A stretch of 22,399 nucleotides of DNA, taken from a virus. Below, piece after piece: positions 1,768 to 17,393 of the stretch (positions are counted from its first letter, which is position 1; each line of letters starts with the position of its first letter). A program made the translations under genes and the position numbers. The notes beneath the pieces are model-generated. The model did not search any database, had not been told where the DNA came from, and saw only the letters and a list, made by a program, of their open reading frames with translations. Location: IMG/VR virus record IMGVR_UViG_3300046516_000177, positions 1 to 22,399 of that record; one strand, given 5' to 3'.

Positions 1768-3030
1768 TTACGTTGGAGTAATCGTCGTGGTGTTCGTGCT
1801 ACTAATGGTGCTTGCACCACTTCCTGCACTGTGAATATTTGGCCCCACGACAGCCCTATCGGCCGCGGCTCGCGCAACGACCATTGTCATGCTGGCAAGC
1901 GCCGTCCCGCTAAAAAATCCTACATTCCCGGTGATGCTGAATGTACTCGTACTGTCGATATCCATCGCATTGAAACTTCCCGAGTTCATGCTGCAGGTCA
2001 TAAGGTTGTTTGATATGTTCAAGCATGAAACCCACAAGCCGTTTGCGTCACTTGGTATATAGACCGCTCTGCAGGAACTAAGCCCAGAGGTGATTCCAAA
2101 TTCATTGCCGATTATCGTGACATTCACGAACTGACCTGTGGTGCCGAGCCTCTGCATAACGATGCCATACGGATTCGCTCCGGCCATGGCTTCAATGCTG
2201 TTTCCGGTTATCATCAGGAGGCTGGAATTTGTTGCATTTGGCTGTTGAAGTATGATGCCGCCGTTCGAAGCAAATATCTTGTTGTTGATAATACGCGCAC
2301 CTCCAACGCCCCTCAATATGATAGCAAAAGAAGCAGTTACCGAAGATGTTGAAAACACATTATCATCTATGCTGAAATCTCCCCCATCGGGGGCAACCGG
2401 GTTTTGCGCGATAATTCCGGCACTGGAATATTGTTGAAAAGAACAAGCTCGAATTGTATATAGTTGACTGTTGACTACTGACAGGCAAATATCCGCCGAT
2501 ATGATCGCCAAATTATCAAACAAACATGAAGCGGTAAAAGACGCTCCGGTCGAGCACGACAATGAAATTCCAAATGTCCCAGTCGTGGCGGCGGAAGGAT
2601 AACGTATCCCGAAATCCCTACAGAAAACGCCGGTGTTTTGAGGAATTGAAATGTTGAGACAATTTATCCCAACTGCCGGACTCAGAATAGACGTAAGATA
2701 ACCGGTTCCTAGAAAACTAACGAGACCAGTTACAGACAATGCCGTGGTAATTTTATACGTTCCGGCAGGGAAGAAAACGATACCGCCTCCAGCGGCCTGC
2801 GCTGCATTGATGGCGGCCTGGATTGCCGCCGTATCGTCGGTAGCGCCGTCACCAGCGGCGCCATAAGGCGCATCCTTGACATTGATAAAAGATGCATTGG
2901 GCGCACTCACGTTCTTGTTGATGAAATCGAGCCACTGCCCGAATTCAACGGTGGGAATGCCATTAGGGACGCCACCGGTCATTATGACCGGCTGACCGGC
3001 TGGCGTCAGTGGCTTTAGTGCTGCTGTCAT
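1768..3030 (-). CDS. Tailspike with pectate-lyase-type beta-helix
   Basis: The 420-residue protein starts at an ATG that overlaps the stop of the gp10-like gene by four bases (ATGA), indicating coupled translation. Residues 1-45 (MTAALKPLTPAGQPVIMTGG...) would be the virion-binding head. Residues about 49-75 carry the hallmark of the pectate_lyase_3 superfamily, with VKDAPYGAAGDGATDDTAAI followed by QAAINAAQ, then VFFPAGTYKI. The remainder has the short N, G and hydrophobic rungs of a right-handed beta-helix (INNKIF, ITGNSIEA, ISNNLM). It has no signal peptide, as expected for a tailspike that binds and perhaps cleaves host surface polysaccharide. G+C falls sharply after about residue 90, suggesting that the receptor-binding part was exchanged. 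The fold is confident; enzymatic activity is not shown. Confidence 0.85.
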   Translation of the reverse strand: MTAALKPLTPAGQPVIMTGGVPNGIPTVEFGQWLDFINKNVSAPNASFINVKDAPYGAAGDGATDDTAAIQAAINAAQAAGGGIVFFPAGTYKITTALSVTGLVSFLGTGYLTSILSPAVGINCLNISIPQNTGVFCRDFGIRYPSAATTGTFGISLSCSTGASFTASCLFDNLAIISADICLSVVNSQLYTIRACSFQQYSSAGIIAQNPVAPDGGDFSIDDNVFSTSSVTASFAIILRGVGGARIINNKIFASNGGIILQQPNATNSSLLMITGNSIEAMAGANPYGIVMQRLGTTGQFVNVTIIGNEFGITSGLSSCRAVYIPSDANGLWVSCLNISNNLMTCSMNSGSFNAMDIDSTSTFSITGNVGFFSGTALASMTMVVARAAADRAVVGPNIHSAGSGASTISSTNTTTITPT

Positions 3031-4772
3031 GATGCTGGTGGCGGCTCCAGTGGGTTGGTGGACATCGTGCCGCCGAGAAATCCGTCGTAGACGGGATCGC
3101 TGCAGTCGATCCGCCAGCGCACGCCTTGTATCCCGGACATGCCGCGCGACTTCACCGAGGCGCGCACGCCCTTGACGTGCTGCTGCGTCCCGATCTGCCG
3201 AATTGCGGGATAGTCCCAGGTGATGCCGCCGTCCTTCGAGCACGATATGGCGCACACCGGGGCGACCATGTTATGCGGCGCCGTGACATCGGTAACCGTC
3301 CCGCCAAAGGTCCAGGCATTGGCCCACAGCGAGCCCTGCAGATCGATGTGGGTCGGATCGACGATGGTTGCCACCCATGTGCCATTGGCTTCGGTCGTGC
3401 CATGGACGCCGGCGACATTGACCTGATCGTTGTTTGTCATCCCCGCTGTCGAGATGACCTCCAGCCGGATCAGATGCGAAGGCGAGGCCGCCGTTCCCAC
3501 GATATTGGTGATGAAGTTGGCGACGTTTTCGCCCACCCCAAACACGAAATTGAAATCCGCGCGCGCGATCCTGGTCTGGCCGGGGAATGCGCTCACTGGC
3601 CCGCTCTCGATCCGCGAGCGCAGCGGTGCCCCATCCTCGGTGAAGTTCTGACTATCGGTAAACAGCAGGTTTCCTGATTGCGTATCGCCCATCAGCCATT
3701 TGCCGAAGGCGTTGTGGCCGCCGACGCCGCGCCACGGGCCATAGAGCCCAGTAGTAGCGTTGAGGCTCTGCCGCTCGTTCCACTTCTGCGTCGAGAGGTT
3801 GAACTGCCAGGTCCAGGTCGAGGACGTGAGCGTCCAGAATTTACGACCCGCCGAGATGTGGACGCCGGCCTTGATCGTATCGCCGGCCTTGACCGCGAAC
3901 TCGATCAGCGTGTTGAGCGCCGGCGGCGAGATCGCCGGACCCGGCTGCAGCGTGTTGTACGGCAGGCGATAGACGTTGAAGTCTTGCGCCACCCAGATCA
4001 GATCGTCGAAGCCGGTTTCCCATCCCGCGATTGCGCTCTGCTGCACCAGCCCATAGGCCAGCGTCATGAATTTTGTATAGGGATAGGCTGGTGTCGGGGC
4101 TGCCGTGTCCTGCCAGACCTCGCAGCCGCCCGTGGTGAAAAAGTACATCATGCCGTTGAAGGCAATGCCGCGGAGCAGTACGACATCCGACTTCGACTGC
4201 AGCTTGACGAACGTGAGCGCGTTCTGCGTCAATGCATTGATCCCCGAAGCAAAGACGCGGCCATCCGCGATCGTGAAGTGAAAGACGCCATCCTGGAACG
4301 CCACGCTGTTAGGCTGCGGCAGCACGCCGCCGCCGTTGTAGGAGACGGGCGCCGCCCCACCGGTCGACGTGAACGCCCCATCCCCCGGACTGACGATCAC
4401 GACATCGACGGTGACGGCCAGATCGCGCGCGATGCTGATCGGAGCCGTCCCCGGTATGCTGCCGAGCGAGGTCACGCCGCCGCCCGCGTCGACCGTCGAA
4501 AGGTTGTTGTTCCACACCTCATAGGACAGATTATTGACGATCAAGCCGCCGCGATAGCCGGTCTGGGACGTGACGGCGTGGCGTGTCAGCCCAGGCGATC
4601 GTCGCCAGACTTGCGGTGATGGTCCGGTAGGATGCTGCGCCTCGCCCAAGGCTTCTGCGTATCGATTGATGATCCTCCCGGCCGATTCCTGCGTGTTGTC
4701 GCCGGGATGCAGATTTGATCCGGGGAACGAGCTCAACGGCCATGGGATCGGGATATAGGGAGTGTTCGGCAT
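3027..4772 (-). CDS. Tail hub / packaged-DNA stabilisation protein, P22 gp10-like
   Basis: This 581-residue protein starts MPNTPYIPIPWPLSSFPG. The ATG shares one base with the stop of the upstream gp4-like gene (TGATG). A longer frame reaching 4976 is only the antisense-like extension through that neighbour. The sequence has many short beta repeats (SVAFQDGVFHFTIADGRVF, IAFNGMMYFFTTGGCEVW, AYGLVQQSAIAGWETGFDDL, then WVAQDFNVYRLP). These resemble the beta-propeller-like body of P22 gp10 tail accessory factors, which bridge the portal/gp4 ring and the needle or tailspikes and keep DNA in the head. It is longer than P22 gp10 (about 470 residues). The extra length includes an insert around residues 440-520 with repeated V/T/G-rich strands. 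The family call rests on recalled similarity, order and size. Confidence 0.72.
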   Translation of the reverse strand: MPNTPYIPIPWPLSSFPGSNLHPGDNTQESAGRIINRYAEALGEAQHPTGPSPQVWRRSPGLTRHAVTSQTGYRGGLIVNNLSYEVWNNNLSTVDAGGGVTSLGSIPGTAPISIARDLAVTVDVVIVSPGDGAFTSTGGAAPVSYNGGGVLPQPNSVAFQDGVFHFTIADGRVFASGINALTQNALTFVKLQSKSDVVLLRGIAFNGMMYFFTTGGCEVWQDTAAPTPAYPYTKFMTLAYGLVQQSAIAGWETGFDDLIWVAQDFNVYRLPYNTLQPGPAISPPALNTLIEFAVKAGDTIKAGVHISAGRKFWTLTSSTWTWQFNLSTQKWNERQSLNATTGLYGPWRGVGGHNAFGKWLMGDTQSGNLLFTDSQNFTEDGAPLRSRIESGPVSAFPGQTRIARADFNFVFGVGENVANFITNIVGTAASPSHLIRLEVISTAGMTNNDQVNVAGVHGTTEANGTWVATIVDPTHIDLQGSLWANAWTFGGTVTDVTAPHNMVAPVCAISCSKDGGITWDYPAIRQIGTQQHVKGVRASVKSRGMSGIQGVRWRIDCSDPVYDGFLGGTMSTNPLEPPPAS

Positions 4773-6208: not shown

Positions 6209-6799
6209 TCAGCATCCGGGAGCGGTGGCGCCGAGTGCGACCGGCCCGCATAGTCCGTCATTGGGAGCGGCGTATTCCAGCACGATGGCGGCGGCTCCAG
6301 CCGTTGCGGCCGTGGCGCCTGTATACGCGATATTTGCCCAGATATCGAAGCCGCCATTGCTCCCGGTCTGGGCGATGTTGTTGCCGGTCGATTGCACACC
6401 GAGGCCGGTCGCCGTGACGATGGTCAATTGCGTGACACCGGCGGCGCCGTGCGTCGAAGTTCCCGCCACCAGCAATGCACCCGTGCCGGAAGCCGTGCTC
6501 AATGCAACGGTGTCGGTGGTGGTGGAGTTGAACGAGGTGAATACCTCGAGGACGCCGCGCAGGATCCATGAATTGTATGGAACGGCGCCGACTTTATAGG
6601 AACAGTTGCCGGCCGCGGCAGGGAGTGGGCAGGAATTGAAATTGACCGGGAACCGCATGTAGTGGACTTGCTGGGTCGGGAATATACGCGGCGAGAACAC
6701 GGGTTGAGCCGCGACATAGAACCCGGAGCCAACGACGAACAGAGCAAGCGCGAGGCCGGCAAGAAATCCGCCGCTCACCCGCGAGATGAGATTCTTCAT
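6209..6799 (-). CDS. Predicted secreted or surface protein next to the capsid gene
   Basis: I place the start at the ATG at 6799, with AAAGG 7 bases upstream, rather than at the TTG five codons earlier. The 196-residue product has a basic n-region (MKNLISRVSGG), a long hydrophobic core (about 12-30) and a plausible signal-peptidase site after VAA at residue 31; a non-cleaved anchor is also possible. The remainder is Thr/Gly/Ala-rich and beta-like (ALSTASGTGALLVAGTSTHG, GGFDIWANIAYTGATAAT). It has four cysteines after the signal, in two pairs (CPLPAAAGNC and CGPVALGATAPGC). Its position directly after the major capsid gene would suggest decoration, but the signal peptide is unexpected for a cytoplasmically assembled capsid. 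Function unknown. Confidence 0.78.
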   Translation of the reverse strand: MKNLISRVSGGFLAGLALALFVVGSGFYVAAQPVFSPRIFPTQQVHYMRFPVNFNSCPLPAAAGNCSYKVGAVPYNSWILRGVLEVFTSFNSTTTDTVALSTASGTGALLVAGTSTHGAAGVTQLTIVTATGLGVQSTGNNIAQTGSNGGFDIWANIAYTGATAATAGAAAIVLEYAAPNDGLCGPVALGATAPGC

Positions 6800-6875: not shown

Positions 6876-6901
6876 AGAACCGCGAGGGCAGCCGCGGCTC
6901 T
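6876..6901 (-). other. Hairpin at the 3' end of the major capsid gene
   Basis: On the transcript AGAGCCGCG-GCTGCCCT-CGCGGTTCT can form a nine-pair stem (one G-U) with an eight-base loop, starting at the last base of the capsid stop codon. No U-run follows, so it is not a standard intrinsic terminator. It may stabilise the capsid mRNA or reduce read-through. Confidence 0.38.
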
Positions 6902-8049
6902 TATGTGTCATTCGCCGAGGCGAAATACCCGTAGAAGATGCCCCAGCTCTTGTAGTTTCCGGCCGGGTTCGCCTTGGCGATGGTCTTGAGGCCATAGGCC
7001 ATTTCGACGCCGACGCCGCGGAAGAACTGGTAGTCGTCCTCTTTCAAGAACGTCGGGCGAGGCATTCTGCCCCATGCCCAGGCCATGGCGGATTGTCCGC
7101 ACATGAACACGGGCGCGATCTGGATGCCGCCGGCGCCTGCGGTGGTGTAGGTCGTGGGCAGCCGGATATCCAGCTCCGGGATCTCGCGGAAGATCATGCC
7201 GTTGTAGAGCAGGTCGCCGTCTTGGAAGAGCGGGTTCTTGTCGAGCCCGTCGCCTTCACGCGGACGCGCCTGGGTATTGGCGTTGATGATCGTGGTGTCG
7301 AGCTGGATGTCGCGGAAGCAATTCGACCCCACGAAGACCACGAAATATTCCCGGCCGTTTTTCAGCTTGTAGGGTCTGATCCTCGGGTTGGCTTTTTTGG
7401 CCAGCCGCTTCATCTTATTTGCCGCGGCGGCGCTGAAGGTCATGCCGGACGTGACATTAGCGGCCGAGGTTGCCCAGTTGCCGGGCGACAGGTTGCCTTG
7501 GCTGCCACCAAACAGGACGCGATCGGAGTTGTCGGTGGTGAATGTGTTGCGTTGTGCTGGGGTTGCCGCGTCGAAAAACGCGCCGTTGACGCGCTGGCCG
7601 CCGGCAGAGCCGAGACCGGCGGGCTGTGTGTTCTGGATCGGGATCGTGTTGAACGTGTCCACGATCTCGTTGCGCTGGAGCTCCTTGCCCCAGTCTTCGA
7701 GCAGCGGACGCGCCTGGCCGAATAGGTCGATGCTCGACTTCTGCTCTTCGGACTTCGGGATGCGGACGGCGTTTCTCGCCCAGTCGATCCACATCCGATC
7801 GCCGAAATTGTCGATATTTTCTTCGTTGCCGACGAGCGTTCCGGTCGAGATCGCGTTGGCCTTGAGCCTTGCGACCAGCGGGATATTGATCTGCTCGCCG
7901 CCTTTTTTCAGGTCATTGATGACGCGGATGATCGCGGTGAGTTCTGTGCCCACATACGGGCTAAACAGGTTCTGCCGGATGTATTCTCGTGTGACTTCCT
8001 TGCGGAAGACGATGAGTTTATTTTGGGCTTGTACGGTAGTGATGGCCAT
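6901..8049 (-). CDS. Major capsid protein, N4-gp56 family
   Basis: The 382-residue protein starts MAITTVQAQNKLIVFRKEVT, with GAAGGGG seven bases before the ATG. The N-terminus (V..Q..L..FRKEVTREYIRQNLFSPY), the GEQINIPLVARL strand, the WIDWARNAVRIPKSEEQKS region and the late PTFLKEDDYQFFRGVGVEMA region match what I know of the N4 gp56 (DUF4043-type) HK97-fold capsid family, at the usual size. It lies after a scaffold-like gene and is bracketed by hairpins. No maturation-protease gene is visible nearby. Family assignment is from recalled sequence features and is fairly secure. Confidence 0.88.
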   Translation of the reverse strand: MAITTVQAQNKLIVFRKEVTREYIRQNLFSPYVGTELTAIIRVINDLKKGGEQINIPLVARLKANAISTGTLVGNEENIDNFGDRMWIDWARNAVRIPKSEEQKSSIDLFGQARPLLEDWGKELQRNEIVDTFNTIPIQNTQPAGLGSAGGQRVNGAFFDAATPAQRNTFTTDNSDRVLFGGSQGNLSPGNWATSAANVTSGMTFSAAAANKMKRLAKKANPRIRPYKLKNGREYFVVFVGSNCFRDIQLDTTIINANTQARPREGDGLDKNPLFQDGDLLYNGMIFREIPELDIRLPTTYTTAGAGGIQIAPVFMCGQSAMAWAWGRMPRPTFLKEDDYQFFRGVGVEMAYGLKTIAKANPAGNYKSWGIFYGYFASANDT

Positions 8050-8130: not shown

Positions 8131-9129
8131 CTAGTTGAATGCGTCTCGGAAGATGCTTTCCTCGGAACCGTCGAAGCCGCGCGGGTCGAGGTTACGGCTA
8201 TTGCCGCCCTCGCGCCCGACGCCGCCTGCTGAGTTCAATGAGGGAAGCCGGGGACTAGTCCCCCTGCCGCGTTGTGCGGGCGCCTGGCGTTGCTCGCCGC
8301 GCTCCCGGGTATCCTGCCGCGGCGCCTGGCGCTGCGGGGCAATGCCTTCAAGGTCTGCCGGGTCTACGCCGAGCAGGCGTGCTGCCTGCTCGCGGTTGCG
8401 TTCCGCCTGCTCCTGGCGGAAGTTCTCCAGGTCGAGGGTATCCTCGGCCCATTGCATCAGCGCGTAGCCGGGATCGGGTGCATTCACGATGCCGCGTACC
8501 GTAGCCGCAGCATTCGGGTCCGTCCTGGCGCGAAACGAGAGCTCGTTTAACTGGCTTGCTGCCAGCGTGAATTCGTCCCTTCGGTTCTCACGCGAATAGG
8601 CCGCCTCGGTTGCCTTGAAGTTGTTCTCCAGAATGGCCGTTCTGGTGGCCTGCTGATATTCGGCCCGCATCTGCGCCGCCATGCCTTCGCGGAAGCCGGC
8701 CGGGTCGAGGACGGGGTCGGGCAGTTCCTGCGGGGGCGGCGCCGGCTGTTCTTGTCGGGGCGCTTCCATGCGTGCCAGCCGGGCTTCGAGCTCGGCAATG
8801 CGTTGGGCGGAAGGGTCGACTGGCGGCAGGCGGTAACTCGGGCGCTCTTGCGGGGGAGCCTCGGGAGGCTCGCGGGCGCCTTCCTGCGGCCGCTCCTCGG
8901 TTTCATCGGCGTCCTCCTCGCCTTCATCCTCCTCGCCGGCGTCCTCTTCGTCGTCGCCGACAGGGTCTTCCATCTGTTCGAGCGAGGTATCGCCGTCATT
9001 CTCGTCCTCGTCGTCGCCCATCGCCTCGGTGAAAATTTCGCTCTCGGTATTGGCCATGGCGGCGACCAGGAGGCTCTCGTCATCGTCGGACGTATCGGGC
9101 GCTGCCGCCCGCTGTGTTCTCGGTGCCAT
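8131..9129 (-). CDS. Scaffold-like protein
   Basis: The 332-residue protein starts MAPRTQRAAAPDTSDDDESL with GAGGA nine bases before the ATG. Residues about 37-80 are extremely acidic (runs such as GDDEDENDGD and GEEDEGEEDADETEE). Then come a Pro/Gln-rich linker, a short coiled coil near 107-122 (AQRIAELEARLARMEA), another Pro/Gln linker and a helical region (about 145-250) rich in Ala, Glu, Arg and Gln. The C-terminus is basic and ends GFDGSEESIFRDAFN. Acidic, helical, low-complexity proteins directly upstream of the major capsid gene are usually internal scaffolds that guide capsid assembly, with the basic C-terminus binding the capsid. The role is inferred from composition and position. 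Confidence 0.8.
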   Translation of the reverse strand: MAPRTQRAAAPDTSDDDESLLVAAMANTESEIFTEAMGDDEDENDGDTSLEQMEDPVGDDEEDAGEEDEGEEDADETEERPQEGAREPPEAPPQERPSYRLPPVDPSAQRIAELEARLARMEAPRQEQPAPPPQELPDPVLDPAGFREGMAAQMRAEYQQATRTAILENNFKATEAAYSRENRRDEFTLAASQLNELSFRARTDPNAAATVRGIVNAPDPGYALMQWAEDTLDLENFRQEQAERNREQAARLLGVDPADLEGIAPQRQAPRQDTRERGEQRQAPAQRGRGTSPRLPSLNSAGGVGREGGNSRNLDPRGFDGSEESIFRDAFN

Positions 9130-9133
9130 TGCT

Positions 9134-9325
9134 TTAATTCCTCAACAGTTCGTCCTGGCGGCGCTCGCGCCATGTTTCCAGGTCGGTCTTGACGGCGTGG
9201 TAGCCGCCGCCCTCGTCGCGCATTTCCTTGACGATCTTGAAGCCGTATTCGTAGGCGAGCTCGCGCCAGCGCCGCGGCCACTTGTCGAGTGCGGCCATAT
9301 GGGCGAATTGCGCGTTATAGGTCAC
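9134..9325 (-). CDS. Small hypothetical protein, 63 residues, GTG start coupled to upstream gene
   Basis: This gene is too short to stand out. The best start is GTG at 9325, overlapping the TGA of the 1041-residue gene as GTGA, with GGGA five bases upstream. An ATG at 9298 is the alternative and would give 54 residues. The product (VTYNAQFAHMAALDKWPRRW, then RELAYEYGFKIVKEMRDEGG) is charged and helical, with a Trp/Arg-rich middle, and ends RRQDELLRN four bases before the scaffold ATG. Close packing with both neighbours supports it. It resembles small conserved proteins seen beside capsid genes in alphaproteobacterial phages. Function unknown. Confidence 0.7.
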   Translation of the reverse strand: MTYNAQFAHMAALDKWPRRWRELAYEYGFKIVKEMRDEGGGYHAVKTDLETWRERRQDELLRN

Positions 9326-12300
9326 TGAAATCCCAAGCGGATGTAGGGGTTGAGGCCATTGTTGGCGGTCCAGGTTGGGTCCCAGTTCCATTTCGCGTTC
9401 GCGAGAGCTTTCGCCATGTAGCCATCGATGGTCGCGGCCTGGCCATGCAGAGCGGCGTAAGTGGAGACAGTGCGCGTGGGGTCGGACCAGACCTTGGTGG
9501 GGGAGCACACATACGAATACATCGTTGTGCTGGTGACGCTCTGCGATGGGGAGACGGTCCAGGCCGTGCCGGAGCCTCCAGTGATCGTGGTATTGGCTGT
9601 GACGCCGGCACCTGCGAGGTTCTGGCCGATTGCTATTGACCCGAGCAAAAGACTGCTCGACGTCAACGCTCCAGACGTGATCACCCCGGTGAACTGAGCG
9701 CCGTTGGTGGTGCAATTCGTGTTCCCGGTCCAGGTGTTCGCCACGCCGCTGCCAAGAACCCCGCCAGGGGAGTCGTGTGTCCCGCCAGCATCGGTGCCAG
9801 CAACCGCCGGAGGGCCATCATCCGGCCAGTTGAAGATGGTGTTCCCGGTCCATGTAAGTCCGTGGACACCGGCAGTGTTCAGGCTGGCAACGGTAAGCTG
9901 CCAACCCGTCAGGGCCGAAATCGAATTAACCCTGATCCGAAGACCGGCCTGTCCTCCAGGGGAGGCTGTCAGAACGTCCCCGACTTGATAGGCCACTCCG
10001 GTGTTGACGATCTGATAAGCGATCAAGTGACCAGGGGTGGTCACGGGACCTGGGTCCGCAACGAGCCCAGTAGACCAGGTTATGGTGTTGCCTGACGAAA
10101 TGACGTTGTTCCATGTGCCATTGTAGGCAGCAGGAACCGCGCCATAGACAGTGATGGTGCTGGTATAGGTGCTAAGGCCGCCATTGTTTGCATTTTGAAT
10201 GGTGTTGGTTCCGGCCGGGACCGTGCCAGTGGCATCATAAAAACCAGTGCCGCCATTGAGAACGCGCGTGACACCCGTGAAGTCATTCAAATCAAAGGTC
10301 GCAAGCGCCCCGCTTCCAGCCATACTGCCACTGAAATTTGTTAAAGCTACTCCAGGCCCCACCCCAACCGTCGAGTTGGATGGAAGGAGCCGACATCCCA
10401 CACCGGCAGTGCCGTAAGTTCCCGCCGTTCCGCCAGACCCGGCGGCAGTGATTGAGACCCCAGCTGTATTGATGCTCGGGTAATTCGCAACCGGCGTCAG
10501 CACATCTCCGAGCAAAAAATTCTGACTGAAGGCCAAGTCATCGACAAAAAGCGGTGACGGGTCATCGATCGATCCGCCAGCACCGACATGGATGGTGTAG
10601 TTTGACACGCTAGTGCCGTGCCCTCCGGTGAAGTGTCCAGATTGACCGATGCACGGCCAGTATCCTAGCGTTCCTCCACTTCCAACTCCGGTTATGTTCA
10701 TAAAGGAAGTGGTGCCATCAATGGCGTCGGTCCTGGCAAAATAGACTGCACCGCCGGAGGCTGGGTCTTTGTGCGCGATAATGTTGCCTGATGACGTAAC
10801 GTTGTTTGAATTGAGGAAGTTGATACCTAGTGGAATTGGAGAAGTGATATGCTGTGGAAACATCACCACGTTGTTGGTGACGACTGTGCTGCTGGTCAGC
10901 GGCGGGTCACCCTCGACATGTCCAACGTCGAAGCTGAAAGAACCGCCATAGATGAAGTTGTTGTCGATGATGCCGCCAGATCGAAATTGAAACCCCTCCG
11001 ATGCGCTTCTGGCGCTGGTGTTTCCTCGCCTGTTCCCGAATGCGGTGTCCCATTGAATGTAGGCGTTCCGAGAAAATGGGTCTCCTGCCGTGAAGGTAGC
11101 GTCAGTGTAGCCGTTCAAATCAAACACGTTCTCTTCGAAGTTTAACCCGGCAGCCATTGCGCCCCCGGCAGACTTTATGTCATCGGCGGTAATGCCACTG
11201 CCGTGGTCCGAGTCGGCGGTGTAGCTGTGGTCAGCCTGATTGCGACGGATGTTGACGTCAAAGTTCCCTACGCTGAAATTAATGCCGCCGTGAAACCATC
11301 TAACGCGACAATCTTCGATCAAAAACCCGGTTCCTCCACTAGGGACAGTTATAGCTACGTTGCCAGCAGTGTTGCCTACTCCAGAATAATTCCCCCCGCC
11401 TGGATCGCGTTGCTGGGCATAAAATTCAATCCCCATGATGGCGATGTGACCGCGAGTGCCGCCCTGCATCTGTATCCCAGGACGCCCATAGTACAGATAT
11501 TCGGTTCCTGCTGGCTTGCCTGCTGCAAAAGCAGCGGATGAGCTTGGGACGATGATGATCGGCCGGGCGCGAGCGCCGACGTTTGGGCCATTGGTTGCGG
11601 AAGGGAAGTTCTCGTCATAGGCAGAGACGACCAACGGCTCCTGCTCGGAGAACCCGCCGAGACCGAAGTTGTCAGAGCCGCCTCCGGTATAGCTGAACGC
11701 AGTTTCGAGCGCCTGCCCGGTGAAGGTGTCGCCCATTCGTAGCAGCAACCAATCAGGCTTCCCACCACGGAGGCCGAAACTCGCAGCCGCACTCCCTGCT
11801 GTGCGCCAGTTGCCTTGCGTGCCGAGGCCAGTGCCGTCACCGGTCGTGAACCGACTATTGTTGTCGGGATCGTACAGGCCAGGACCGGTCCCGCCGGCAC
11901 CCTTGATCAAGGTCTTGACCGGGCCATGGATTCCGGGCGCGGCGGTTGTGTAGGCCATCGTGGCAGGCCCGGTGCCGGGGCCTCCACATCCAGGTGAGCA
12001 TAAAGTCAGCGTTCCGCTTGCGTCAGGGAGACCGGTACGGGAGGTCATCTGCACAGTAAGCTGACTTGTAACGCTCACTGCGACGGTGAAATGATTGCCG
12101 TTCGGGCTGGTGTAGATGTTGTTGACGACTGGGCTTGCGGCCGAGCTTAGAGCGAATTGCTCGGTGACGCCGTCGTCGACGAAGGTCGGGGTCGAGCCGT
12201 CGCGGAGGTCGTTGCCGAGGAAGTCCGACACGTAGATGATGTTGGTAACTGTAGCGCTGGGCTGTGCGATAGTGCTCGGGCCGATGCGGGTCCAGCCTGC

Positions 12301-12447
12301 TGCGCCAGTAGAACCGTAAGTGCCGAGGACGAGGCCTGGGACGAGAGGGCCGCCACCAACGGGAGCGCCATGACGAGGCCACGCAGCGGCGTGGAAGCTC
12401 GACATGGAGGCAACGACCAAGGCTAAAAGGAAACTCTTAGTACGCAT
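9322..12447 (-). CDS. Large secreted-type beta-helix protein, 1041 residues
   Basis: The protein starts MRTKSFLLALVVASMSSFHA with a textbook Sec signal peptide: basic n-region, hydrophobic core 6-14, and AAA before a likely cut after residue 22. The start overlaps the upstream gene by 11 bases and has no clear ribosome site, so coupling is likely. After an N-terminal beta-rich part, residues about 310-560 carry right-handed beta-helix rungs (FLIEDCRVRWFHGGINFSVG, VNIRRNQADHSY, GIIDNNFIYGGSF, STVVTNNVVMF). The region about 640-950 is Gly/Thr-rich, with repeats of the phage/bacterial type GAGVTANTTITGGSGTAW followed by TVSPSQSV. The C-terminus is short and Trp-rich. Seven cysteines remain after the signal. 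It looks like a polysaccharide-binding or -cleaving surface protein. Presence of a signal peptide argues against an ordinary tailspike. Specific function unknown. Confidence 0.82.
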   Translation of the reverse strand: MRTKSFLLALVVASMSSFHAAAWPRHGAPVGGGPLVPGLVLGTYGSTGAAGWTRIGPSTIAQPSATVTNIIYVSDFLGNDLRDGSTPTFVDDGVTEQFALSSAASPVVNNIYTSPNGNHFTVAVSVTSQLTVQMTSRTGLPDASGTLTLCSPGCGGPGTGPATMAYTTAAPGIHGPVKTLIKGAGGTGPGLYDPDNNSRFTTGDGTGLGTQGNWRTAGSAAASFGLRGGKPDWLLLRMGDTFTGQALETAFSYTGGGSDNFGLGGFSEQEPLVVSAYDENFPSATNGPNVGARARPIIIVPSSSAAFAAGKPAGTEYLYYGRPGIQMQGGTRGHIAIMGIEFYAQQRDPGGGNYSGVGNTAGNVAITVPSGGTGFLIEDCRVRWFHGGINFSVGNFDVNIRRNQADHSYTADSDHGSGITADDIKSAGGAMAAGLNFEENVFDLNGYTDATFTAGDPFSRNAYIQWDTAFGNRRGNTSARSASEGFQFRSGGIIDNNFIYGGSFSFDVGHVEGDPPLTSSTVVTNNVVMFPQHITSPIPLGINFLNSNNVTSSGNIIAHKDPASGGAVYFARTDAIDGTTSFMNITGVGSGGTLGYWPCIGQSGHFTGGHGTSVSNYTIHVGAGGSIDDPSPLFVDDLAFSQNFLLGDVLTPVANYPSINTAGVSITAAGSGGTAGTYGTAGVGCRLLPSNSTVGVGPGVALTNFSGSMAGSGALATFDLNDFTGVTRVLNGGTGFYDATGTVPAGTNTIQNANNGGLSTYTSTITVYGAVPAAYNGTWNNVISSGNTITWSTGLVADPGPVTTPGHLIAYQIVNTGVAYQVGDVLTASPGGQAGLRIRVNSISALTGWQLTVASLNTAGVHGLTWTGNTIFNWPDDGPPAVAGTDAGGTHDSPGGVLGSGVANTWTGNTNCTTNGAQFTGVITSGALTSSSLLLGSIAIGQNLAGAGVTANTTITGGSGTAWTVSPSQSVTSTTMYSYVCSPTKVWSDPTRTVSTYAALHGQAATIDGYMAKALANAKWNWDPTWTANNGLNPYIRLGFQ

Positions 12448-13369
12448 TGATCGCCGACCCGTAGCCAGTCAGGAACTTCGCGAAGGTGTTGATGCGATTG
12501 GAAACCAACGCCATGTTGGCCGCCGTGATGGCGTTGCCCACGAAAGCAAACGACAAACGGTCAACGGAGAAAAGTATCGGGCTCCCAGCATTATTCGTGG
12601 CTCCTATGAGAAATTCCGTTGTTGGAGGCCCTGCCGAGGTGTCTGATCCATTGGACGCAAATGGTGTCGTGTTGCTGTTGAGATAAAGTGCGGTGGCGGA
12701 GCCGGTTGTTCTTGTTGCCACCCATTGACCCTTGGCGTCGGTGTTGGCGACCGCCGCCGAAGTGGTTAGGCTGTTTGCCGTGTATTGCGCCAAATTGCCC
12801 GTGAACAATGGGCGAATGTAGGATTGCGTTCCTGGTTCAAGCGTACCTATGGCAACGCCCGTATTGGCTGTTGTGTTGCTCAGAGTTACATAAACACCGA
12901 ATGACAAACTATTTAGATTGGGGGGCGAGGCGTTGGGCGCTAGTCCTGTTGATAGATATTGAGACGATCCATTGCCCGTGTAGCCGATGTTGATGGTGAA
13001 GGGGATCGATGCCTGCGCGACGAGAGTGAAGCTGCTACTGCAAAGGTTCAACAGCGAAGTAGCCGAATCTGGCGCGGCAAGAACCCAAAGACCAATCAAT
13101 TGGCTGCCGGTCACGCAGCCAACAGAGTCGGTTTCCAGTCCGCAGATCAAATTGTCGTAATTAGTCTTCTGCGGGTTGGTCAGACCGGAGGTGCGGGCGA
13201 GGAAGTTTGACGATGGCGTGCAGGAGGGCGTGAAAGGTGCGCCACCCGCAGGCGGGTTGTTGTACGCCGAGTCCCGCGTCTGCCAGTAGGCACTGGACTG
13301 CCTTTGCTGCGCCAGGCACACAATGCCAGCAAGCAGAAGCGCCCAGCCTATGAGGCGGTGCAACATCAT
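12437..13369 (-). CDS. Secreted-type protein with concanavalin/tail-fibre-like domain
   Basis: I start this gene at the ATG at 13369, which overlaps the previous stop by four bases (ATGA), giving 310 residues. A slightly longer start at 13384 is less likely. The N-terminus MMLHRLIGWALLLAGIVCLA is a signal peptide or anchor, with cleavage plausible after residue 20; VC does not make a lipobox. The mature part includes LIGLWVLAAPDSATSLLNLC, then TINIGYTGNGSSQYLSTGLAP, NSLSFGVYVTLSN, WVATRTTGSATALYLNSN, FLIGATNNAGSP and a closing helix INTFAKFLTGYG. This pattern is familiar from C-terminal lectin-like (LamG/concanavalin-type) domains in phage tail proteins of rhizobial phages. Four mature cysteines could form two disulfides. 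A surface-binding role is inferred. Confidence 0.8.
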   Translation of the reverse strand: MMLHRLIGWALLLAGIVCLAQQRQSSAYWQTRDSAYNNPPAGGAPFTPSCTPSSNFLARTSGLTNPQKTNYDNLICGLETDSVGCVTGSQLIGLWVLAAPDSATSLLNLCSSSFTLVAQASIPFTINIGYTGNGSSQYLSTGLAPNASPPNLNSLSFGVYVTLSNTTANTGVAIGTLEPGTQSYIRPLFTGNLAQYTANSLTTSAAVANTDAKGQWVATRTTGSATALYLNSNTTPFASNGSDTSAGPPTTEFLIGATNNAGSPILFSVDRLSFAFVGNAITAANMALVSNRINTFAKFLTGYGSAINAY

Positions 13370-14391
13370 AGTTGATATCCCCAAGCCGAGACGGATACGG
13401 TGCCACCAGTGCCTGGTGCTCCAGATACCACGTTGATTGCTGTGTTTGTTGCGCTGGACGGGATACAGGGGGAGAAGACCATTTCAGTCACGCCCAGACC
13501 GCTAGCGAGCGGCGCAGTCCATTGAGTGAAGTTCATGGTCGCGGTAACAACGCCAGTTAATGTGGCGTTATTAGTCACCGCCGCCGTAGCGTTGGCACGG
13601 ATTGAGAACCCGCAGATATAGGTCTTCAGGCCGCCCGCCGAGGCTGCGAGCGTAGCGGTCGTGGCTGCGGTCGTGCCGGTCGCAGTGGCCGTGATCGGCA
13701 CGGCGCCGTCTGCGTATGGAGCGGTGCCAACGGTGCCGATGTGGGCGGTGCCCGCGGGAATCGCGGAGTTAATGCTGGCGTTGACCTGTCGCAGACAGGA
13801 GACGACCGAAGTACCACTGGCGCAACTGGCGGCGTCGGTGTTGTTGCCTTCGACAACATCGGCGCCGTTTGCCACAGTGACGGCGCCGCCGCCCGCTCCG
13901 CCAGCGACGACGTTGACGCGGAGGTTGCCAGTCGAGTCAACCTGGAGCGGGGCCATGTTGGTGGTGGTCAGGGTGCCGGGCGAGGTCAGGAACTGTCCGA
14001 GCATCAACTGTCCGTTGGCCACAAGCGCGCTATTGTAGGTACTGGTGCCGATGCCCCAGTTCGCCGCGGTGGTCGGGTTGACGGTCCAAGCGCCGGATTG
14101 GGTGGCGGCGACGGTGCCGGAGACGGGCTGGGTGGTGGTGCCAGTGGGGTCGATTCGAAGAGGGGCAGCAGCGATACCAACTTCGGCACCTGCAGAGTTA
14201 GTATTGACAATACCTTGACACTGGGTGTTGGCGGCGGCGCAAAGGGACGTGCCGCCATGGGTGGAATCGAAGGCGCGGAAGATCGTGCCTGCGCCCTGCG
14301 TGGCGTTGTAGTCGGCCAGGGCGTAGATCGGCAGGATGGCGGCAAGGCCAAAATAGGCCAGGCGAAGAAAACGCAGATGCCATTTGTTCAT
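13366..14391 (-). CDS. Secreted-type PVSGTV-repeat phage protein
   Basis: The ATG at 14391 overlaps the upstream TGA by four bases and follows GGAGG at six bases. It is preferred over the start ten codons earlier. The 341-residue product has a signal peptide (MNKWHLRFLRLAYFGLAAIL, then PIYALA, likely cut after residue 26). The mature chain is rich in Ala, Thr, Gly, Val and Asn, with motifs QPVSGTVAATQSGAWTV and APLQVDSTGNLRVNVVAGG. These motifs are common in uncharacterised phage structural or decoration proteins. The C-terminal half (about 225-341) is beta-like (LKTYICGFSIRANAT, MNFTQWTAPLASGLGVTEMV). Six cysteines remain after the signal. Function unknown; a virion-decoration relative with an added export signal is one reading. 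Confidence 0.8.
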   Translation of the reverse strand: MNKWHLRFLRLAYFGLAAILPIYALADYNATQGAGTIFRAFDSTHGGTSLCAAANTQCQGIVNTNSAGAEVGIAAAPLRIDPTGTTTQPVSGTVAATQSGAWTVNPTTAANWGIGTSTYNSALVANGQLMLGQFLTSPGTLTTTNMAPLQVDSTGNLRVNVVAGGAGGGAVTVANGADVVEGNNTDAASCASGTSVVSCLRQVNASINSAIPAGTAHIGTVGTAPYADGAVPITATATGTTAATTATLAASAGGLKTYICGFSIRANATAAVTNNATLTGVVTATMNFTQWTAPLASGLGVTEMVFSPCIPSSATNTAINVVSGAPGTGGTVSVSAWGYQL

Positions 14392-14837
14392 GGCACACCT
14401 CCAAGCATGGCCTGTGGGCAACCTTTGGAAAGATCGAGCGCGCCACTACAGCCGATCGGCAACACGTTGATGTTGAAGATCCGCGAAGAAACCGTCGGCA
14501 CCGTACCGGTTACCGAGATGGTGATCGGAATAATCGGGTGGGTCGCGAACACTAGGTTCACGTTACTGAGCACGGTCACCACGCCGGTCGACGAGTTGAT
14601 CTGGAAAACCCCCAAAGGGTCGGTCAAGGCCCAGACCGGGACGCCCGTAGTGCTGCCGCCCGCGATGCTCGCGGTCCCGAGCGTGGTGCCGTTCGCTGAC
14701 ATTTCCAGGATCGAGGTATTGGATAGCGCGATGAACAAGCCGCTGGCAAAGTTGCCGGAGCCGTATCCCGTAGTCAGCAACTGCGCCGGCGCCGACGAGG
14801 CTAGGCAGATGAGAAGCGCCGTTATGAGCCCCCTCAT
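14388..14837 (-). CDS. Secreted-type small protein with cadherin-like segment
   Basis: The ATG has GAGGG six bases upstream and follows the previous stop by 25 bases. The 149-residue product begins MRGLITALLICLASSAPAQL, a clear signal peptide with a likely cut after APA at residue 18. The middle (about 68-128) reads WALTDPLGVFQINSSTGVVT followed by a strand ending FNINVLP. The F.I...TG.V and closing .I.V pattern is that of a single cadherin/Ig-like repeat. The tail has two cysteines (GCSGALDLSKGC). This fold usually mediates adhesion or protein-protein contacts. The domain call is from pattern only. It is translationally coupled to the next gene. Confidence 0.78.
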   Translation of the reverse strand: MRGLITALLICLASSAPAQLLTTGYGSGNFASGLFIALSNTSILEMSANGTTLGTASIAGGSTTGVPVWALTDPLGVFQINSSTGVVTVLSNVNLVFATHPIIPITISVTGTVPTVSSRIFNINVLPIGCSGALDLSKGCPQAMLGGVP

Positions 14838-14862
14838 GGTGAGCCCTCATCCTGAAGCACCA

Positions 14863-15267
14863 TCACTGCTTGATGCCGAAATTGATCGCCAGGCCGGTCG
14901 CCGCCACCGTGGTGTCGCTATCGGCCTGCAGTCCGGTAAGGCAGAAGCCCAGCCCGTTGGCAAATGCCAAGCCATCGGAGATCGGCATGACGGCGCCGCC
15001 GCCAGCATTCGCTGCCCCGAACGGGATCGGCACCTTCCATTTCACCACCGAGGTGCCGCAGGTCGGCGCCACGGCAAGATCGTAAAGCTTCAGCCAATAG
15101 ATCGCGGCCGTCGTATTGAACAGGCCGAGCACGCGAAGCTGCACGGCGCCGGAAACGACCAGGGTCGAGTTGGTGGAGGCGGCGCTGTCGTATTTGAGCG
15201 GCGCCGACTGCGCAAACGCGCTGAAGCTCCACGCTGTTGCCAGCGCGGCGAGAAGTAGTCTGAGCAT
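14863..15267 (-). CDS. Secreted-type hypothetical protein, 134 residues
   Basis: The ATG has AGAGG seven bases upstream and starts 12 bases after the portal stop, so the gene is in the same operon. The N-terminus MLRLLLAALATAWSFSAFAQ is a strong signal peptide with a likely cut after AFA at residue 19. The mature chain (about 115 residues) is beta-like: STLVVSGAVQLRVLGLFNTT, IYWLKLYDL, VVKWKVPIPFGA, ATGLAINFGIKQ. It has two cysteines (PTCG and GFCLTG). Similar short sequences occur near head genes in related phages, usually without a name. First of five consecutive signal-peptide genes. Function unknown. Confidence 0.8.
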   Translation of the reverse strand: MLRLLLAALATAWSFSAFAQSAPLKYDSAASTNSTLVVSGAVQLRVLGLFNTTAAIYWLKLYDLAVAPTCGTSVVKWKVPIPFGAANAGGGAVMPISDGLAFANGLGFCLTGLQADSDTTVAATGLAINFGIKQ

Positions 15268-15278
15268 TGGGGAGCCTC

Positions 15279-17393
15279 TTAAGCTGTTGCTTTGATCGGA
15301 GCGTTACGCCGCGGGATATTCTGCTTCGCCCGCTGTGCGTTTCTGTGCTTCTCTTGCGCCGCCAGCTCACGCATCTTGAAGACATGCTCTTCGCGGCGTT
15401 CCTGCATCTGGAGCGCAATACTGGCCCGTTCCGCATTGGCCCGTTCGCGCTCCAATTGGAGGTCGGCGGCGTTGTTCTGCATCTCGGCTTGCGTCGCAGC
15501 GGCATTGGCCTGGGTGGCCATGTGCGCCTTGGCAATTTCTGCCTGTCCGCGCGCCTGCGCCGTCTGTGCGCCGATTTGCGCGGCCTGTATCTTGGCCTGC
15601 ACTGCCGGATCAGGAGCCGGTGGCTGGCTCATCATTTTTATGATCTTTTGCTTGATGCTGTCGGCCAATGGCATCAACTCGATCAGCGCGCCGGGTGGCA
15701 CCGTCCCAGGCGGCATGTGCGAGAGTGTTTCAAATGCATCCTGCATCAGGTTGGCGTTGTCCGGCCCCTCGTCCAGCACGATCTCGACTTCGATGTCGCC
15801 GATCACATTGATGAAGCCGGGACGGCCGAATTGATCTTTGCCGAAACCGTTGATCTGGATCAGCTTCTGGGTGTCGTCGGTGCCGACCCGGATGAACCGT
15901 TCCTGGTTCCAGGTGCGTTTGACGATATTCCACACGGTACGATAAACACGCAGTTTCCACGCGCGATACGCCAATATAAACGAACCGAGTTCAGCGATGC
16001 CGGCCTTCTGAAGGTAATTAATCGCCACCCCTGAATGAAACGTGCTGTCATCCGCTCCGATGGCGTCGGGTCGTATGTTGGCAAACCCATCGATTTCGCT
16101 CGTCGCTGTCTGCATGAGTTGCAGTTGCGCCGCCAGGTCGGCCTGCCGATCGTCCGGCATCGGCTTCTCGAAGCCCTTGTTGTATTCTACCCATCCGTCT
16201 GGGCGCGAGCTTTCGCGGCGAGCTGTTTCCACATCGTCAACCGAGCCTTTCTGCGCGAAAGTGCGCGTAACGTTCGAGATAAAGAGCGCCTTGGACCGGC
16301 GCTGGTTGACTTCGTCTTGCGGACCTTTGAGGTTGCGGACGAAACCATAGCGATCTCCATCGTGGTCGACCGCGGCCGAGAACATCACGTAGCGGTTCAT
16401 CGGCCTGTTGCGCTCATCGAGGAACGGCGACACGCCCTGATCAAGCAAAATGAAGCTGCAATAGAACGCCCAGTACCATTTGCCTTTGTGCTTGTACCAG
16501 TGCTCGATCAGTCGAAGTCTTTGCTCGTTGACATAGACCCACTTGAACTCGCGATCCGAATGTGTCGTGAGATCGAAGCCCGTGTCGACCATGAGGGTTC
16601 TAAGCTCTTCCTCCTTGTCGGGGAAAAGCTCGATTGCCGCCTCCACGTCCAACCATTTAGCAATACCCATATAACGGGCGTCACTAAAATCAGGCTTGTA
16701 AGAACGAGGATCGTAGAAAAAATCATCGCCGAAAATAAAATCACCGCCAATATCCGGGTCGCCATGGTCGCCTTCGATCAGCTTGAGCTCGATTCCGCCG
16801 ATGCCGTCGATGGCGGCCTGCTTGGTGCATTCGAAGTCGAGATATTTGAAATCCATCCCATCGAGTGCGGCGCGGATGCACTGCGTGGCGAGCTCGGCAC
16901 CCCCGGCATTCTTAGGCGATCGGGGAAAAGCCTTCGGGTCTTGGCGAAGTCGCTGCACAAGCGCTGTGATGCCGTCAACTTTTCGGTTGATCCTGTTGAA
17001 TGTGATGATCGGTTGCTTGCGCTGCCGGAGGATGCGGATTTCCTCCGCCGTCCAGTGCGCGCCGTGGTAGTAGTGGCGCGAGACTTTCTGCTCCTCATAT
17101 TCCAGCACCTTCGTTGCCAGATAGTCGGTGTATTGCTGCCGTAGCCGCGTGACCGGGAAATAGCCGTCCTCGTCGCCCGAGAAGTCGTATTCGTCGGGCG
17201 CCTCGGTGCCCCAATTGCCTACTGTTCCGGTCTGCGACTTGAAGCCGGGATTATTCTGCGCCGCCCGGCGCCCCATGGTATCGCCGCCGAATTGCCGCCC
17301 GCCGAGCACGCCGACGCCCGAGAGAATATTGCGCCTCGGGAGCTGATCGCCCGGATTGCTCTGCGATCGTGCCGGGAGGCCGCCGAATGCCAT
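15279..17393 (-). CDS. Portal protein, P22-type
   Basis: The 704-residue protein starts MAFGGLPARS with AGAGGTG just before the ATG, overlapping the terminase stop region, so this start is favoured over the internal Met-40. The first 70 residues are Gly-rich and look disordered. Residues 85-150 (YTDYLATKVLEYEEQKVSRH, then TFNRINRKVDGI) and the later DFIFGDDFFYDPRSY and NRYVMFSAAVDHDGDRYGFV segments match the P22 portal family, which is also about 725 residues long. The C-terminal 110 residues are an Ala/Gln/Glu/Arg-rich helix (QAAQIGAQTAQARGQAEIAK) that could form the barrel or a coiled coil. It forms the dodecameric DNA gate at one capsid vertex and docks the terminase, whose gene is directly upstream. 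Confidence 0.88.
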   Translation of the reverse strand: MAFGGLPARSQSNPGDQLPRRNILSGVGVLGGRQFGGDTMGRRAAQNNPGFKSQTGTVGNWGTEAPDEYDFSGDEDGYFPVTRLRQQYTDYLATKVLEYEEQKVSRHYYHGAHWTAEEIRILRQRKQPIITFNRINRKVDGITALVQRLRQDPKAFPRSPKNAGGAELATQCIRAALDGMDFKYLDFECTKQAAIDGIGGIELKLIEGDHGDPDIGGDFIFGDDFFYDPRSYKPDFSDARYMGIAKWLDVEAAIELFPDKEEELRTLMVDTGFDLTTHSDREFKWVYVNEQRLRLIEHWYKHKGKWYWAFYCSFILLDQGVSPFLDERNRPMNRYVMFSAAVDHDGDRYGFVRNLKGPQDEVNQRRSKALFISNVTRTFAQKGSVDDVETARRESSRPDGWVEYNKGFEKPMPDDRQADLAAQLQLMQTATSEIDGFANIRPDAIGADDSTFHSGVAINYLQKAGIAELGSFILAYRAWKLRVYRTVWNIVKRTWNQERFIRVGTDDTQKLIQINGFGKDQFGRPGFINVIGDIEVEIVLDEGPDNANLMQDAFETLSHMPPGTVPPGALIELMPLADSIKQKIIKMMSQPPAPDPAVQAKIQAAQIGAQTAQARGQAEIAKAHMATQANAAATQAEMQNNAADLQLERERANAERASIALQMQERREEHVFKMRELAAQEKHRNAQRAKQNIPRRNAPIKATA

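Follow-up and report, generated by a model that had tools for sequence, protein, structure and literature searches.

It is generally assumed that tailed phages put their heads and tails together wholly within the reducing cytoplasm. Signal peptides on virion proteins are familiar from the filamentous phages, whose coat proteins pIII and pVIII carry them, but these phages assemble in the membrane. In tailed phages we know of no cement or fibre that bears a signal peptide, and literature searches of partial coverage found no signal-bearing cement or fibre in tailed phages. Late decoration is exemplified by T4 Hoc, which can be added to the surface of finished heads; like pb10 of T5, it is made in the cytoplasm, and to our knowledge neither protein has a signal peptide. 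Serotype-converting phages such as epsilon15 and D3 carry wzy and acetylase genes. In vitro, purified pb10 attaches to T5 heads already filled with DNA, and its affinity is picomolar (PMC5292684); decoration at a late stage is thus physically plausible. Among phage products that are exported and act beyond the cytoplasm is Llp of T5, and T5 exclusion proteins also stop adsorption to lysed fragments, sparing progeny from debris (PMC9586334). Here we analyse the virus record IMGVR_UViG_3300046516_000177 (the window, that is, the whole stretch of 22,399 bases), in which a tailed phage with portal, terminase and scaffold genes, whose heads would assemble in the cytoplasm, carries a cassette of five genes (A134, B149, C341, D310 and E1041) between portal and scaffold, all with predicted signal peptides, and a sixth gene of this kind, F196, after the major capsid gene. 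The A-F products resemble Llp in their predicted action outside the cytoplasm, but Llp is an early lipoprotein, whereas A-F lack a lipobox, belong to a late operon and comprise several unrelated beta-proteins.

Predicted export of the cassette proteins

A first reading of the letters by themselves (the sequence-only reading) had placed five consecutive signal-peptide genes, four of them linked by 4- to 11-base overlaps, between portal and scaffold, and had known of no described system of this make-up. We confirm the position, on the minus strand, and the linkage (4 bases for B-C and for C-D, 11 bases for D-E); A134 starts 11 bases past the portal stop and B149 25 bases past A134. A rule-based score (basic n-region, hydrophobic core, AxA-type site) picks out all five, together with F196, and none of the 15 other window genes, so that the set of five, although signal-bearing throughout, was incomplete. 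Our literature searches, within their coverage, also returned no system of this make-up. The six genes are:

A134: 14863..15267, minus strand; predicted exported beta-domain protein; signal peptide residues 1-19 (AFA/Q, the slash marking the cleavage point here and below), nucleotides 15211-15267; score 6.3; two mature cysteines
B149: 14388..14837, minus strand; predicted exported cadherin-like protein; signal peptide residues 1-18 (APA/Q), nucleotides 14784-14837; score 7.2; two mature cysteines
C341: 13366..14391, minus strand; predicted exported modular protein; signal peptide residues 1-26 (ALA/D), nucleotides 14314-14391; score 6.9; six mature cysteines
D310: 12437..13369, minus strand; predicted exported protein, lectin-like by inference; signal peptide probably residues 1-27 (SSA/YWQTRD), nucleotides 13289-13369; score 5.9; four mature cysteines
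E1041: 9322..12447, minus strand; predicted exported, large beta-rich protein; signal peptide residues 1-22 (AAA/WPRHGA), nucleotides 12382-12447; score 7.1
F196: 6209..6799, minus strand; predicted exported, cement-fold protein; signal peptide residues 1-31 (VAA/Q), nucleotides 6707-6799; four cysteines, at 57, 66, 184 and 196

The score was calibrated on 11 known Escherichia coli signal peptides, of which it recovered 10 and missed the PhoA control, and on core phage genes; by eye, it also misses a slot gene of the relatives L027/L080 and a signal peptide in L111. Among the cleavage sites proposed earlier, that of D310 has to be moved from CLA to the likely site SSA, because the conserved mature end of its relatives begins YWQTRD.

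In 50 distinct relatives, 35 of the 50 portal-scaffold slots (0.2 to 7.5 kilobases long) hold at least one signal-positive gene. Signal-positive are 76 of 174 slot genes, 15 of 294 genes further downstream and none of 240 core genes (the scaffold, capsid, G, H, I and head-closure families). One collection contains 421 capsid relatives. Many of the contigs analysed derive from few soil studies, and redundancy was cut with filters on k-mers and identity.

In exported proteins that form disulfides the number of cysteines tends to be even, and the signal-bearing mature parts that contain cysteine follow this tendency, with 75 even and 5 odd counts (p 4e-17, a value that assumes independent proteins, which is not fully true even after the reduction to 60% identity) and 1.75 cysteines per 100 residues. 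The signal-less slot and downstream proteins give 55 even and 65 odd (0.82 per 100) and the core structural proteins 34 and 41 (0.67 per 100). The two features also go together within families. Among homologues of domain A, where relatives retain the signal pattern of A134, 32 have both signal and cysteine pair, none has the signal without the pair, 29 have neither and one is discordant; the discordant protein, from L179, has a signal-like start beyond the distance limit, and the 'signal' of the L193 row is a chance internal start. Many independent gains of signal and pair were considered for domain A and rejected, the tree needing only about three changes. In the E family, four cysteines are invariant in the 8 signal-bearing homologues and absent from the signal-less one of L235.

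The E position also marks the cleavage point. At least six very different signal peptides occur there, all ending AxA/WPRHG; relative to the window, the signal regions are 23-36% identical, whereas the first 12 mature residues are 58-92% identical. In L005 the WPRHG tag precedes a body unrelated to that of E, and L006 is likewise, judged by motif and start. Cleavage at AxA/WPRHG is thus supported, because divergent signal peptides share this end even ahead of an unrelated body. D behaves similarly, its tag being 58-100% and its body 25-59% identical in relatives. Since signal pattern, cysteine pairing and conserved cleavage point agree, we consider it very likely that the signal-bearing proteins are exported. 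As a separate observation, the signal peptides of the swapped E-position proteins of L005 (5556-7814) and L006 include an RR motif (VSRRSLLVG, NRRKLLAAT), and these proteins may use twin-arginine translocation (Tat) rather than Sec.

What the mature parts are is less evident, and the surface-module labels given to them earlier stand only in weakened form. B149 is cadherin-like by a weak match to cadherin-23 (E 0.0043), and the lectin-like label of D310 is weak or indirect; D310 matches phrog_17104 (E 3.8e-7). E1041 may be beta-helix-like, a call resting on the appearance of the sequence because the AlphaFold2 model reached a mean predicted local distance difference test score (pLDDT) of only 35.8; no known domain was found in it. 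The Pfam search of A-F found no domain, searching the PDB by sequence with profiles of E, D and A revealed no significant relative, and tblastn against a phage collection returned no match for E or F and one short match for C. C is the largest and most widespread slot family (27 members among the relatives' signal-positive slot genes), with a common C-terminal domain that includes the cysteine pair ICGF..SPCIP. The beta-domain of A occurs elsewhere as the C-terminal part of larger signal-less proteins, for example in the Caulobacter phages S2B and KSC. A joint function of B and E is probable, because they are fused in L227 and L231 (58-67% identity).

A cement-position protein and the tail fibre

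F lies directly 3' of the capsid gene in nearly all relatives, the place of the cement gene in the freshwater cyanobacterial phages Pam1 and Pam5. AlphaFold2 models F196 as an N-terminal helix followed by a beta-sandwich (pLDDT 74.8; predicted template modelling score, pTM, 0.63), and the best solved matches of this model in Foldseek are the capsid cements of Pam1, KHP30, KHP40 and GP4, which are also its top four in VIA, with Z values of 9.2 (Pam1, gp6), 9.3, 8.6 and 8.3 over 116-120 residues; the fold assignment rests on this one medium-confidence model. The GP4 virion holds 540 cement copies (PMC9698820). F differs from the annotated Pam1 and Pam5 cements, which lack a signal peptide, in having one of Sec type and paired cysteines. 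Of 60 distinct F forms, 59 have the signal peptide, each of them with 0, 2, 4 or 6 cysteines. Sixteen apparently signal-less F genes were dismissed as gene-calling artefacts in which other open reading frames (ORFs) overlap the match. A true exception is L129, with a signal-less orthologue of 136 residues and one cysteine right after its capsid gene, and L064 has another; an F profile from which both were left out matches them (E 1e-25 and 2e-9, respectively). The Pam1 cement comes next among the 886 ORFs of that search, not significantly. In other sequence comparisons of F with the Pam1 cement, the latter ranks first among 449 ORFs with some profiles, weakly (E 0.0018 to 0.03), and hhalign of F against the Pam cements gave no match. 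Fold, gene place and orthologues together suggest that F is a capsid cement. The family phrog_20969, labelled 'Rz-like spanin', matches the cement-position, cement-fold proteins of the window (6209-6799), L129 (1761-2168) and L138 (8883-9395) and is probably mislabelled.

The tail fibre shows a comparable difference. In L248, L319-L321 and other relatives it is signal-bearing, whereas the orthologue of Pam5 is signal-less; both belong to phrog_8763, which the L248 fibre (13519-14652) matches with E 3e-27, and this fibre is 39% identical to that of Pam5 over 221 residues. L064, in which the slot is nearly empty, also has a signal-less fibre, and L129 has no signal peptide on any gene within the 10.7 kilobases examined. 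As read from the genes, two classes of exterior virion protein, cement and fibre, appear to have gained or lost the export signal together with the cassette.

Possible destinations of the putatively exported proteins

The sequences support the signal peptides, the cleavage point, the cysteine pairing, the cement fold and position and the signal-less orthologues; that export occurs, that the virion is the destination, that docking takes place at lysis and that the mature tags serve in it, we infer. Our first choice, held tentatively, is export of the exterior virion proteins of this group of short-tailed phages, with oxidation in the periplasm and attachment to the particles when the cell lyses. 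The cement F, the tail fibre and the variable A-E cassette, with A-E as decoration-, fibre- and glycan-binding-type proteins, would be made from the late structural operon with Sec signal peptides; once exported, they would lose these, form disulfides and be stored in the periplasm, and when DNA-filled heads exit the cytoplasm at lysis the stored proteins would dock onto heads and tails. Perhaps the constant mature N-terminal tags (WPRHGA, YWQTRD, DYxATQGAGT) do the docking, and the bodies behind them are exchangeable and supply binding or enzymatic activity. With slightly more reserve still, we propose that a whole tailed-phage clade may have shifted its exterior virion proteins (cement, fibre, cassette) to Sec, with folding and disulfide formation in the periplasm and completion of the particle from outside at lysis; this might be a way of assembly so far undescribed in tailed phages. 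We lean to a virion destination because F combines the fold of a cement with the gene place of one and has orthologues that lack the signal, and because the tail fibre shows the same switch; that some relatives' slots hold signal-less tail-fibre-like proteins supports it as well.

The sequence-only reading had preferred decoration of the infected cell. In the main rival to the virion destination, which we hold to be less likely, the proteins would stay with the infected cell or its remnants and bind, mask or modify surface glycans with lectin-like, beta-helix and esterase modules. Superinfection would then be blocked and progeny kept off lysed envelopes, as T5 Llp does for FhuA. Signal peptides and disulfide-type cysteines fit this rival, as does the role described for the T5 exclusion proteins (PMC9586334). 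It would also accommodate what some relatives carry in the slot: beta-helix or lectin-like modules, signal-bearing GDSL/SGNH esterases (L021, L052, L063), a signal-bearing pectate-lyase-like protein (L098) and O-antigen-ligase-like (Wzy_C) membrane proteins (L036:2202-3281, L040:17910-19055, L041:12053-13225), the latter recalling the surface-glycan genes of the epsilon15/D3 type, although the window cassette has none. E and D bodies diverge to 25-59% identity between phages whose capsids are 99-100% identical, and similar signal-peptide cassettes with E accompany other capsid genes in L238 and L240, which marks the cassette as a mobile module; rapid divergence and mobility both suit an envelope-acting set. 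However, such a set leaves unexplained why F should have a cement fold at the cement position and signal-less orthologues, and why the signal-bearing fibre retains its tail-protein family match, and neither a lipobox nor a second membrane segment was found in A-F. The comparative evidence therefore leans to the alternative that the sequence-only reading had named, virion proteins that pass through the membrane; its claim of export is strongly supported, decoration of the infected cell is not favoured over the virion, and some action at the cell surface may occur. Export being common to both, we place the virion destination first, tentatively, and the envelope after it.

Two further explanations seem improbable. 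Soluble secreted enzymes or lectins, neither part of the virion nor active in exclusion, could be freed at lysis and loosen exopolysaccharide so that progeny spread. Esterase, pectate-lyase-like and arabinofuranosidase-like modules do occur among the relatives' signal-bearing slot genes, the last in a D relative in the slot of L110, but A-E have no Pfam enzyme domain, and F and the fibre would be left unexplained. Least probable of all is that these are virion proteins of the cytoplasm whose hydrophobic N-termini are never cleaved and act as anchors or in assembly, as in ejection proteins that interact with membranes: the virion-type modules and the operon position would agree with this, but AxA cleavage-type motifs followed by conserved mature ends, the even cysteine numbers and the signal-less versions without cysteine pairs would not. 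Lysogenic conversion from a promoter of the cassette's own was also considered. The group is judged temperate because integrases are present in 17 of 31 records of relatives, but such conversion is unlikely, since A134 starts so close to the portal stop and B-E overlap.

Several points nevertheless weigh against a virion destination. The placement of these proteins on virions is predicted in this group from genes and modelled fold, and the signal peptides from a rule-based score. The sequence link between F and the Pam1 cement is weak, and signal-less G128, where present, could be the working cement. Secreted esterases and Wzy_C membrane proteins in the slot fit envelope action, A-E are not tied to one capsid, and the correlation of signal and cysteines in domain A does not amount to many independent events. 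Finally, periplasmic proteins are diluted at lysis.

Genomic setting, host and implications

On the minus strand, the genes follow the order terS, terL, portal, A134, B149, C341, D310, E1041, a protein of 63 residues, scaffold, major capsid, F196, G128, H191, I136, a head-closure protein (phrog_578), a pectate-lyase-type spike and additional genes. In Pam1 and Pam5 the order terS, terL, portal, scaffold, capsid, cement is that of the window minus the cassette. The genes that border the slot and lead to F196 are:

15279..17393, minus strand: P22-type portal, 704 residues, PF16510 E 1.1e-92; upstream border of the slot
9134..9325, minus strand: conserved protein of 63 residues between E1041 and scaffold, without signal peptide, kept in the close relatives examined
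8131..9129, minus strand: scaffold, placed before the capsid gene, without cysteine or signal peptide; downstream border of the slot
6901..8049, minus strand: major capsid, 62-88% identical to 10 aligned relatives

The host is probably a rhizobial bacterium, because the cellular capsid-based relatives are Bradyrhizobium sp. YR681, metagenome-assembled genomes (MAGs) of an uncultured Rhizobiales and of a member of the Salinarimonadaceae, and one further MAG.

Some neighbouring genes vary among relatives in ways of their own. The portal (15279-17393) of many close relatives (L008, L010, L015 and others) matches at 95% up to residue 610 and is divergent in the remainder. The large terminase of L014 and L031 is 79% identical, as opposed to 97-100% in most other close relatives, and appears to be a swapped gene. 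The window spike (1768-3033) has a pectate-lyase-type body, whereas L066, L070, L072 and L077, whose capsids are 99-100% identical, retain about 45 of its N-terminal residues in spikes of 74-169 residues. L238 (13099-15507) and L240 (4399-5865), with their other capsid types, encode further large signal-bearing proteins among the tail genes.

Whichever destination applies, the predicted exported, disulfide-type state of virion-type proteins is far from the known systems. A signal-bearing, cysteine-paired cement-type protein and a fibre, both with signal-less near orthologues, make the assumption of cytoplasm-only assembly testable. If the proteins are on virions, tailed phages would assemble in two compartments and could harden their shells with disulfides, a matter relevant to survival in soil. 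Otherwise the clade would secrete a large group of proteins acting on the host envelope. Either way, hundreds of soil phages, probably of rhizobial hosts, would have an unrecognised exported proteome.

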